From: Staphylococcus debuckii
GTDB lineage: Bacteria > Bacillota > Bacilli > Staphylococcales > Staphylococcaceae
Direction: 5' to 3'
NCBI RefSeq assembly: GCF_003718735.1
Contig: NZ_CP033460.1
Coordinates: 124,001-188,000 of the forward strand
DNA length: 64,000 bases
Below the pieces are notes generated by a model. It was not told the origin of the DNA. It saw only the letters and a list, made by a program, of their open reading frames with translations, and searched no databases. This document shows positions 9,228 to 63,787 of the stretch, in pieces. The position numbers and the translations under genes are program-made. The first letter of the stretch is position 1, and the number at the start of each line of letters is the position of its first letter.

Positions 9228-10355
9228 TTATCCTTCAACTTTTTCAGTATTCCACACTTCTTCAGCAATACTTTTCACTAAACGAATCTTAGCCCATTGC
9301 TCTTCTTCCGTGAGATTATTGCCTTCTTCTGTAGAGGCAAATCCGCATTGAGTACTCAAAGCTAAATTTTCTAATGGAATATATTGGCTTGCTTCTTTAA
9401 TTCGTGCAATGACTTCATCGCGATCTTCGAGTTGGCCGTCTTTCGAAGTAATTAATCCTAGCACCACATTTTTACCTTCTGACACATATTTTAACGGTTC
9501 GAACCCTCCTGAACGGTCTGTATCATATTCTAAAAGGTAATTATCTACGTTTTCTCTATCAAAAAGCGGAGTAGCAACGGAATCATAAGCGCCTTCAGCA
9601 AACCATGTTGAACGGTAATTTCCGCGACATACATGTGTTTGTACCGTTAAATCTTCAGGCAATCCTTCGATGGCTTTGTTGTTCGCTTTAACAAATACTT
9701 CTTTCAATCGTTCTTTCTCTTTCGCATCTCCACTTTTACCGTTAATTTCTGTTTGATCTCCTACTAATCTGCCCCAAGTTGTGTCATCGAATTGGATAGT
9801 CCGTAATCCTTCGTCGTATAAATCTTGGATGACAGTTTGATAAGCTTGTGCAATCGCATCAATCAACGCGTCATCTGTGGGATAAAATTTTCTAGTCGCT
9901 TCAATATTTTCTTTACGTGTCAGTTCCGAGAATAAACGGGCTGGTGCCGGTACAGTTTGGCGGGCTTCAATGCCTTCTGGTGTGTGTGCTTTTAAAAATT
10001 TGTAGTGCTCAACGAATGGATGACGTTCTCCGTTTATGTAATTACTTAATCTTGCCGTTTCAAAGCGAGATTGTACATTCGCAAATTCAAATCCGCCTGC
10101 ATCTTTAATCGCTTCTACACCATTTAGTCCCCAAAAGAAATCTAAGTGCCACCAGCTGCGACGAAATTCACCGTCCGTAATGGATTTCAAGCCATTTTCT
10201 ACTTGTTTTTTAATGAGTTGCTTAATCTCTGCATCTTCTACCGCTGAAAGTGCGGCTTGGTCGATTTCACCTGCTTCAAATTGAGCACGTGCTGTTTTCA
10301 ATGCTTCCGGTCTTAAAAAACTTCCTACAATGTCATATCTTAATAATTCACTCAT
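9228..10355 (-). CDS. MetE C-terminal-domain-like methyltransferase (YxjG/YxjH type)
   Basis: The 375-residue protein matches the catalytic half of cobalamin-independent methionine synthase. N-terminal SELLRYDIVGSFLRPEALKTA, the TDGEFRRSWWHLDFFWGLNG segment, zinc-ligand candidates in QTHVCRGNYRS (His, Cys) and STQCGFASTEEGN (Cys) are all present. Full MetE is about 750 residues; short forms use other methyl donors such as S-methylmethionine or methylcobamide-type substrates, unproven here. ATG at 10355 follows GGGGG at 7 bases. A methionine T-box upstream supports a role in methionine supply. Confidence 0.87.
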   Translation of the reverse strand: MSELLRYDIVGSFLRPEALKTARAQFEAGEIDQAALSAVEDAEIKQLIKKQVENGLKSITDGEFRRSWWHLDFFWGLNGVEAIKDAGGFEFANVQSRFETARLSNYINGERHPFVEHYKFLKAHTPEGIEARQTVPAPARLFSELTRKENIEATRKFYPTDDALIDAIAQAYQTVIQDLYDEGLRTIQFDDTTWGRLVGDQTEINGKSGDAKEKERLKEVFVKANNKAIEGLPEDLTVQTHVCRGNYRSTWFAEGAYDSVATPLFDRENVDNYLLEYDTDRSGGFEPLKYVSEGKNVVLGLITSKDGQLEDRDEVIARIKEASQYIPLENLALSTQCGFASTEEGNNLTEEEQWAKIRLVKSIAEEVWNTEKVEG

Positions 10356-12339: not shown

Positions 12340-12519
12340 TTATTCCTTCAACCATTCTTTAATCACTTCAATAGGCATCATCCCTCTGATTGAAGCTTTA
12401 AGATTGTTGATTTGTGCTTTTCTTCCCATACTGCTCGCCATATTCATGGGTTTATAATTTTCCCAGTGTTCAAGTTCGTCCATCTTTTCTCTAATTTGTT
12501 GTTTGCTGAATTGTTTCAT
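12340..12519 (-). CDS. Methionine-rich 59-residue protein under SAM riboswitch control
   Basis: The product begins MKQFSKQQIREKMDELEHWE and ends VIKEWLKE; it looks helical and soluble, with no cysteine or membrane segment. Seven of 59 residues are methionine, including PMNMASSM and GMM. I do not recognise a family. ATG at 12519 has AGGTGG 8 bases upstream. It is the only gene between a SAM-I riboswitch and a terminator, so it should be expressed when SAM is scarce. A role in methionine/SAM homeostasis is inferred from that alone. Confidence 0.7.
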   Translation of the reverse strand: MKQFSKQQIREKMDELEHWENYKPMNMASSMGRKAQINNLKASIRGMMPIEVIKEWLKE

Positions 12520-12546
12520 TTTATTTACCACCTTTATTGTTTTTGG

Positions 12547-12700
12547 ATAAATAAAATAGCCCTCCTTACAAGAAGAAGCGCTTCAACACATCTTCTTATC
12601 TTTCAAGTCATCAACTTGTTGGATTTAGCACGATACCGTAAAACGGTTGCTGCTGGAGTTTCACAGGGCCAAGTCCCTCCACTCACTCTTAATAAGAACT
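12547..12700 (-). promoter_or_regulatory. SAM-I (S-box) riboswitch
   Basis: Minus strand aptamer 12593-12698: closing strands TTCTTAT ... ATAAGAA, the GTGGAGGGACTTGGCCCTGTG core with GAAACTCCAGCAGCAACC, the CGTGCTAAATCCAACAAG segment and GATGACTTGAAAGATAAGA. These are the conserved S-box elements. The expression platform AGCGCTTCTT / AAGGAGGGCT followed by ATTTTATTTAT (about 12547-12577) is a terminator whose 5' arm can instead pair with upstream AAGAAG sequence. Confidence 0.93.
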
Positions 12701-12716
12701 ATTTTATTCAATTATA

Positions 12717-12744
12717 ATCATACCGTATTCCTGTACTTTTTCAA
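12717..12744 (-). promoter_or_regulatory. Promoter of the SAM riboswitch transcript
   Basis: Minus strand TTGAAA (12739-12744), 16-base spacer, TATGAT (12717-12722). Confidence 0.7.
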
Positions 12745-62122: not shown

Positions 62123-62545
62123 TCAACAAAAAACAAAACATTTTACACAAAGAAAGATAATTGAATATCGTTCTTAAACACGATAATAAGGAAAGTAGAA
62201 CTTACACTGCTGGCACAGAGAGCCTCCAATTGCTGAAAGGAGGCGCAGAAAGAAAGTTTGAAAATGGCCTTGGAGTGGTGATGTCGATATGAGGCATCAA
62301 CGGGGGCGCCCGTTACAGCGCTACAGTATTAACATTTTTGCACAATGGCGTACTGGATAACGAAACGTTATTTTTTAATAGCGGGCCTTCATTCAGTATC
62401 AGAGCCATCAACAGATTTAGCGTACTGGAAGAGGTTGCTTTAGCAATAAAGCAGCGAATTAAGGTGGTACCGCGAAGCTCAAGCTTTCGTCCTTTACATC
62501 CGATTTTGTTCGGGTTTAAAGGACGGAAGCTTTTTTTCGTGGTCA
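62123..62545 (+). promoter_or_regulatory. T-box leader, tRNA-Met
   Basis: About 420 bases. The T-box core AAGGTGGTACCGCG is at 62461-62474. The terminator is the long stem AAGCTTTCGTCCTTTA / TAAAGGACGGAAGCTT with seven T (62482-62540). A Stem-I region holds GAAAATGGCC with ATG (62264-62266) as likely specifier. Uncharged tRNA-Met should allow read-through into metI. Confidence 0.95.
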
Positions 62546-62614: not shown

Positions 62615-63787
62615 ATGTCACTATCATCAGAAACAAATTTAATCAAGCATCACCAATTCCCGCATATCTTAGCAGCCAATCCGCCATTATACGATTCATC
62701 AACTTTTCCGACAGAATTAATCGGTTCAGAAGTTGCTTATGACTACGCCAGATCAGGTCATCCGAATCGTGAAGTATTAGAAGAAAAAATTGCAGCGCTT
62801 GAAGGTGCAGATTACGGCATCGCCTACAATTCCGGCATCGGCGCAATTTCAGCAGTTTTCTTTTTACTAGAAAGCGGAGACCATCTCATTATACCGAATG
62901 ACGTTTATGGCGGAACTTATCGCTTATGTACACAGTTCTTACCAGGGTTGAACATCGAAGTAACTACAGTCGATACTACTAATCCTGCAGAAGTAGAGAA
63001 AGCGATTAAAGATAATACGAAACTAATTCATATTGAAACACCATCTAATCCATTATTTAAAGTGACAGACATCCAAGCGATTGCAGATGTAGCGAAAGCG
63101 CACAACTTGCTGCTTTCAGTAGACAACACTTTCTTAACACCTTTATCACAGAAACCTTTAGAATTAGGCGCTGATATTGTCAGTCACAGTGCTACTAAAT
63201 TCTTAAGTGGCCACAGCGATCTAATCGCAGGCATCGTGGTAACGAACAATGCGGAAGTCGCAGAACAATTAAGATTTATCCAAAATACGTTAGGCAGCGG
63301 TTTATCAGCACAAGATAGCTGGACGCTGACAAAACACCTTAAAACATTGCATGTACGTTGGAATCAATCCGTACACAATACACAAAAAATTGTTGAATTC
63401 TTAAAATCTCGTCCGGAAATTACCGAAGTTTATTACCCAGGAAATGATGAAATCAATCAAAAGCAAGCTGAAAATGGCGGTGCAGTTTTAAGTTTCCGCT
63501 TAAGCGATCCTGAAAAAGTGCCCGAATTCGCAAAGGCTCTGAAAATACCTCAAATTGCAGTCAGCTTAGGCGGTATTCAAACAATTGTTTCTCATCCAGC
63601 TACAATGTCTCACGCTTCAGTTCCTGAAGATGTACGCAATGAACGCGGCATTACCTTCGACTTACTGAGATTAAGTGTTGGATTAGAAGACCCTGACGAA
63701 TTGATTGCAGATTTTGAAGCAGCATTGGAGGAAGCATACTATGAACCGATTTCTACAAACTTTGAAAGAGAACGTCTTAGTAGCTGA
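62615..63787 (+). CDS. metI: Cystathionine gamma-synthase / O-acetylhomoserine thiolyase
   Basis: The 390-residue PLP enzyme couples an activated homoserine with cysteine (or sulfide). The PLP lysine is K195 in SHSATKFLSGHSD; YDYARSGHPNRE, ETPSNPLFKVTDI and the C-terminal SLGGIQTIVSHPATMSH are family signatures. AAGGAG precedes ATG. First gene of the T-box met operon; its last 47 bases overlap the next gene, so the two are tightly coupled. Confidence 0.95.
   Translation: MSLSSETNLIKHHQFPHILAANPPLYDSSTFPTELIGSEVAYDYARSGHPNREVLEEKIAALEGADYGIAYNSGIGAISAVFFLLESGDHLIIPNDVYGGTYRLCTQFLPGLNIEVTTVDTTNPAEVEKAIKDNTKLIHIETPSNPLFKVTDIQAIADVAKAHNLLLSVDNTFLTPLSQKPLELGADIVSHSATKFLSGHSDLIAGIVVTNNAEVAEQLRFIQNTLGSGLSAQDSWTLTKHLKTLHVRWNQSVHNTQKIVEFLKSRPEITEVYYPGNDEINQKQAENGGAVLSFRLSDPEKVPEFAKALKIPQIAVSLGGIQTIVSHPATMSHASVPEDVRNERGITFDLLRLSVGLEDPDELIADFEAALEEAYYEPISTNFERERLSS

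Follow-up and report, generated by a model that had tools for sequence, protein, structure and literature searches.

A SAM-I riboswitch accompanies the gene of a small helical protein in Staphylococcus and related bacteria

In the window analysed here, a stretch of 64,000 nucleotides from Staphylococcus debuckii, a full-length SAM-I (S-box) aptamer stands before an open reading frame (ORF) of 59 codons, and the two are kept together in relatives. Searches by protein similarity alone, in which the riboswitch was not used, gave 72 stand-alone relatives in 69 genomes, and in 71 of them an S-box immediately precedes the ORF (70 of the 71 loci scanned with the covariance model, plus G047 by eye). 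The genomes comprise 34 of Staphylococcus, 28 others of its order and seven of family f6, which belongs to another order; the relatives thus span Staphylococcus, sister genera, two other families of the order and one family outside it. A preliminary description had proposed an S-box dedicated to a single tiny gene, which the conserved pairing bears out; it had also considered that homologous loci might keep the riboswitch and lose the ORF, and the outcome favours its proposal. The explanation that we prefer, at somewhat less than an even chance, is that the locus belongs to the SAM (S-box) regulon with a single gene, whose product is a binding protein induced at low SAM and acting in sulfur or methionine metabolism. 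Expression at low SAM, protein binding and the metabolic partner are the parts of this explanation that we infer. The elements of the locus are the following.

12744-12717, minus strand: promoter-like site TTGAAA-16-TATGAT, 10 of 12 consensus matches, weak candidate
12698-12593, minus strand: SAM-I (S-box) riboswitch aptamer, full length by covariance model RF00162
12600-12568, minus strand: putative antiterminator, 3' arm of P1 with 5' arm of the terminator, -14.0 kcal/mol by folding
12582-12558, minus strand: predicted terminator hairpin of the expression platform, -9.4 kcal/mol by folding
12557-12549, minus strand: U-tract of that terminator, ATTTTATTT, a T-rich tail 3' of the hairpin
12535-12528, minus strand: ribosome-binding site AAAGGTGG, read from the sequence
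12519-12340, minus strand: ORF of 59 codons for a small helical protein, supported by homologues, dN/dS and AlphaFold2
12305-12270, minus strand: terminator-like hairpin behind the ORF, 16-bp stem, UUUU end

The aptamer matches RF00162 over positions 1-108 of 108 of the model with 82.8 bits and an E-value of 5.1e-18 (curated cut-off 44.4). When pieces of the leader were folded, the platform terminator and the antiterminator were mutually exclusive. The same pairing of P1 with the terminator arm is present in the MFE structure of the leader, the MFE z-score being only -1.79. The complete aptamer with a terminator platform, as first described, is upheld by the full-length match and the alternative hairpins. 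Among 29 leaders picked across all clades, a hairpin with a T-rich tail was found in every one, ending 32-39 nt 5' of the start codon, as folded without a shuffled control. The antiterminator pairing was recovered in 28 of the 29 from 36-nt pieces folded alone (-4.0 to -14.0 kcal/mol); the piece from L087 folds as the terminator. The P1/antiterminator/terminator layout at the locus is that of the usual SAM-I switch, with a response to SAM assigned by analogy. When SAM is plentiful, the aptamer would hold P1, the terminator would form and no full mRNA would be made. When SAM is low, the 3' arm of P1 would pair with the 5' arm of the terminator, transcription would continue, and read-through would yield the 59-residue helix-loop-helix-helix protein. 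The alternative pairings were computed, and the direction of the response is taken from established SAM-I biology.

The two ends of the proposed transcript are less firmly placed. The promoter had been called good; between positions 10300 and 13000, 13 promoter-like sites are found against a mean of 11.5 in shuffled sequences, and since comparable sites are no rarer after shuffling, the one before the S-box is weak evidence. As to the gene being closed by its own terminator, the 16-bp hairpin with its UUUU end is present as a prediction and is not strong. A simple terminator scan of the window listed neither this hairpin nor that of the platform, so that a terminator behind the ORF is plausible only.

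Comparison of homologues indicates that the ORF codes for protein and is under purifying selection. Among 21 homologous pairs, two were saturated and the 19 usable ones gave dN/dS values of 0.03-0.30, several of them with dS > 1. Sites similar to AAAGGTGG precede the homologous starts, so that ribosome site and start codon are kept. These data bear on the idea that the RNA matters and the ORF is incidental. SreA and SreB of Listeria are trans-acting riboswitch RNAs, and any terminating S-box, this one included, should give rise to a short terminated riboswitch RNA. Nevertheless, the low dN/dS in the 19 usable pairs, the retained translation signals and a protein still recognisable in another order make such a purely RNA-based role very improbable.

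The protein and its family are not named by Pfam, NCBIfam, PHROGs, PADLOC or the PDB sequences. A single-protein search of a large database returned six proteins, the window protein included, and the named close relatives are from S. simulans and unclassified Staphylococcus. Database matches to the family as a whole lie in Staphylococcus, Phocicoccus, Macrococcus/Macrococcoides and Mammaliicoccus. With the window protein as query, matches at E ≤ 1 are obtained in 40 of 84 Staphylococcus genomes; profile A1, built from 24 members, also finds 40 of the 84 at E ≤ 0.01, of which 34 at 1e-11 or better form the stand-alone set of this genus. A search of 157 genomes across the order with this profile gave matches in 12 genomes belonging to family f4 (E 1e-24 to 5e-18), in a single f2 genome (1e-9) and, at weaker levels, in genera g2, g3 and g4. 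A class-wide search with the broader profile A3 over 398 genomes drawn added G138 (g2), G156 (g5) and G401, the last belonging to f6, where the ORF is recognisable in a second order. When 151 f6 genomes were searched, nine matches were obtained at E ≤ 0.01, consisting of seven short ORFs and two stretches within long frames. A final class search with the still broader profile A6 added nothing convincing, and its five last-listed rows were left uncounted. No relatives were found on viral contigs or plasmids (single queries with P0001) or on phages (single query with the L031 protein).

Several candidates were rejected as family members. L127 and the G028 fragment are decayed pieces; L130, L131, L143 and L144 are other frames, two of them inside 868-codon frames; and the match in G097 lies in a 508-codon frame with stops. 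In a covariance scan, none of five non-family matches (L127, L130, L131, L143, L144) had an S-box.

The same scan placed an S-box directly upstream of the ORF in the window and in 28 of 29 loci L013-L041, 13 of 13 (L072-L084), seven of seven (L085-L091), both L108 and L109, ten of ten (L119-L126, L128 and L129, L127 not being counted as family), three of three (L133-L135) and six of six (L137-L142). The sole exception, L038 in G024, is a decayed copy with a stop inside the ORF. Three genomes of genus g2 (G135, G137 and G141; loci L086-L088 with L119, L120 and L126) carry two paralogues each, which differ in their C-termini and lie each behind a separate S-box. The ORF is patchily distributed in Staphylococcus: 45 of 84 genomes lack it, the tree implies at least 15 gains or losses, and it is thus not essential. 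Decay is also seen in individual copies: the ORF of G014 stops four residues early, and those of G056 and G319 have early stops with the S-box retained.

AlphaFold2, run with 77 sequences, predicts for the window protein three helices (residues 6-21, 27-47 and 50-58) with a pLDDT of 90.5 and a pTM of 0.70, in line with the helical fold suggested beforehand. A 93-residue relative from f6 is predicted with helices 3-15, 21-46 and 49-85 (pLDDT 85.9, pTM 0.44), that is, in the same order although it comes from another bacterial order. The predicted fold is a helix-loop-helix-helix in which the tip of the hairpin formed by helices 1 and 2 carries the conserved motif. Conserved positions around this tip are W19, Y22, P24, N26, A28, S29, S30, M31 and R/K33, with the motif Y-x-P-x-N/S-x-A/S-S/G-S-M-x-R/K, and position 33 is basic (R or K) in all 38 diverse members compared. 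Lengths and C-termini vary widely among members, and this variation at the C-terminus suggests that the tip is the important part. A conserved tip together with the lack of a match to an enzyme family points to a binding protein.

Comparison with solved structures gave nothing above ordinary helical hairpins, a result that says nothing on the fold; TrmK, Gfh1 and DksA2 did not rise above this background. Several sequence matches were set aside as chance: Pfam SO_alpha_A3 (E 0.0084 for the window protein, below cut-off, three of 24 members); the PDB profile matches AdcA, seryl-tRNA synthetase and alpha-parvin and the designed SAKe proteins (E down to 0.0018), all over a short or no significant stretch; and 16 PHROGs, each with a single match among 36 members (E no better than 0.0025). 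The longer relatives gave coiled-coil matches in Pfam, NCBIfam and PADLOC; no match came near a curated cut-off, a value that PADLOC does not provide.

A binding protein of this kind could be an antirepressor or adaptor, which would bind a transcription factor or a protease adaptor and so broadcast low SAM to genes without an S-box. Its small size, its helical AlphaFold2 model and the lack of a catalytic family are compatible with such a role, as are the C-termini of one clade (ITIEDIRKYILNKK), which we take to resemble SinI of Bacillus, likewise a small helical protein. That resemblance is a superficial one of the C-terminal helix, and SinI is not among the Pfam families matched at E ≤ 1 by 24 members, a search in which HMMER filters could hide weak matches. 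There is also no notable PDB sequence match, and no regulator recurs across clades as a neighbour in 54 loci. We therefore regard the antirepressor or adaptor as unlikely.

In these 54 loci, clustering of flanking frames of at least 70 codons revealed no specific neighbour common across clades. The widely recurring neighbours belong to families of general occurrence, among them short-chain dehydrogenases and ABC ATPases. That an orphan protein is accompanied by its own S-box and by no constant neighbours indicates that it presumably acts in a role that depends on low SAM. In L013, L016 and L017, another gene, which we assume to belong to the DUF523 type, starts 16-19 nt after the ORF; the two may share a transcript under the S-box. 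Behind the ORF of the window lie two tandem paralogous genes resembling lipoproteins with serine-rich linkers (12174-11503 and 11439-10792, minus strand), before a gene with a T-box leader.

Seven distant relatives, with the motif EW-x2-Y-x-P-x-N-x-A-A, are found downstream of an S-box at the metY locus. They follow metY directly in G001, G015, G029 and G035 (names by reading). In G068 and G057, the distant relative is the last gene, preceded by those of a tautomerase-like protein, a symporter and a flavin monooxygenase, with metY just upstream; in G016, metY, S-box and ORF are spaced alike. Gene order was read in six of these loci, that of G016 being judged from spacing alone. A PfpI-like gene follows in all six loci read, so that the seven probably derive from one locus; G016 and G057 carry a stand-alone copy as well. 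The S-box operon adjoining metY in L116 (G068), L117 (G057) and L118 (G016, by spacing only), with its flavin-dependent monooxygenase, sodium:solute symporter and tautomerase-like genes, looks in its L116/L117 form like a sulfur-scavenging operon.

Co-occurrence with MetY, the O-acetylhomoserine sulfhydrylase, was examined further. A MetY-like gene is present in 53 of 84 Staphylococcus genomes. When the ORF is counted in its stand-alone or distant form (39 genomes), 38 of the 84 have both genes, one has the ORF only (G032), 15 have MetY only and 30 have neither (Fisher p 1.5e-10). Shared ancestry was accounted for on a tree of one gene, the NhaC-like transporter (84 rows, quick method), on which the result is marginal. 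Nine independent pairs differing in the ORF were found, with MetY changing the same way in 6.0 and the opposite way in 0.3 on average (median p 0.031, range 0.016-0.375). Pairs chosen by MetY gave 6.2 and 0.4 of 10, respectively (median p 0.0625, range 0.016-0.219). Two controls were uninformative for co-occurrence, since all 84 Staphylococcus genomes have the NhaC-like transporter and 83 have an aminotransferase; in genera g2 and g3, where some genomes carry the ORF, the transporter was not found.

The MetY-like matches fall into two groups by identity to the copy of the window genome, 21 genomes at 76-100% and 32 at 57-61%, and two orthologous groups may thus be mixed in the count. In the 15 genomes with MetY only, no relative of the ORF was seen by eye behind metY. 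A crude motif search of 16 loci (these 15 and G008) found an S-box before metY in six, all in the 76-100% group, and none in the 57-61% group. With two groups and the S-box seen in one of them only, a single function for all is not certain. Outside the genus no link to MetY appears, MetY being present in 20 of the 28 genomes that carry the ORF and in 31 of the 45 that lack it. The ORF is therefore not confined to genomes with MetY: eight of those 28 lack a match at E 1e-60 (G133, G136, G145, G147, G156, G084, G119 and G109, the last only 81% complete).

These data can be read in terms of a dedicated accessory subunit or activator of MetY, serving direct sulfhydrylation and nothing else. The operon of metY and ORF in four genomes, the presence of MetY in all but one of the ORF genomes of the genus and the first pair test speak for it. 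The eight genomes outside the genus, the 15 within it that have MetY only, the reverse pair test and the two identity groups speak against it, the last two lowering its odds somewhat further, and we consider this role improbable. MetY is not an obligate partner of the small protein; it may be one partner, or a marker of a lifestyle, namely sulfur prototrophy. The co-occurrence within the genus and the operon in four genomes favour a regulator or a helper of a methionine enzyme and make MetY a candidate. According to our preferred explanation, the low-SAM-induced protein would bind another protein of sulfur or methionine metabolism and alter its activity in SAM shortage; in Staphylococcus, that partner might conceivably be MetY or another step of its branch.

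The methionine content had been taken as the salient property of the protein, which indeed has seven Met among 59 residues and no Cys. Across the 77 members of alignment A4, methionine ranges from 1.1 to 12.7 per 100 residues with a median of 3.6, the window protein being at the high end (11.9). Members of its clade have 6-7 Met, against 2-4 in the other full-length Staphylococcus members compared. By this comparison, methionine richness is local to one clade and not the point of the protein. The methionine reservoir or sink that was proposed for it accounts for the seven residues in the window protein; it fails as a family trait, and using up methionine when SAM is low would be poor storage logic, so that we give it almost no credence.

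The general view is that S-boxes control enzymes or transporters of methionine and SAM. Seven further S-boxes lie in the genome, and the first gene behind each, as named by reading, looks related to methionine or SAM: MetN (twice), MetQ, an NhaC-like transporter, MetY, MetK and an aminotransferase. The locus shares with that regulon its full-length aptamer and the P1/antiterminator/terminator arrangement, and differs in that the target is a small protein unnamed in the libraries searched. The riboswitch itself is ordinary; what is new is a known regulon with a dedicated small-protein output outside the named families. Full-text searches of the open-access literature found no report of an S-box before such a small protein, and supplementary regulon lists may hold an unnamed entry. 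A functional analogue is provided by SR1P and SR7P of Bacillus subtilis, small proteins that bind the metabolic enzymes GapA and enolase and change their action (PMC8152036). The analogy concerns the manner of working and no sequence relation is claimed; SR1P and SR7P are encoded on dual-function RNAs, unlike the present ORF.

A more far-reaching proposal, which we hold with less confidence than the preferred explanation, is that of a family of low-SAM alarm microproteins in at least two orders of Bacilli, carried as a free-standing cassette of riboswitch and ORF and adjusting methionine and sulfur enzymes after translation. If it were true, a regulon regarded as one of enzymes and transporters would gain a protein-level output, and the cassette would offer a defined, testable entry to a further layer of methionine control. 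Association with a riboswitch can reveal families of small proteins that are unnamed in the libraries searched.

Other regulatory RNAs were noted nearby. T-box leaders precede a MetE-like gene (leader 10669-10423, minus strand, 116.3 bits; gene 10388-9228) and a cystathionine-synthase-like gene (leader 62174-62497, plus strand, 121.8 bits; gene 62615-63787), both named by reading, so that the window holds both kinds of control, T-box and S-box. In one clade (L022, L031, L032, L035, L039, L040 and L108), the S-box is preceded at about 1 kb by the sRNA sau-13 (RF02385). A Purine riboswitch (32982-32881, minus strand, 71.4 bits) is followed on its 3' side by a run of genes read as phosphoribosyltransferase, permease, IMP dehydrogenase and GMP synthase.
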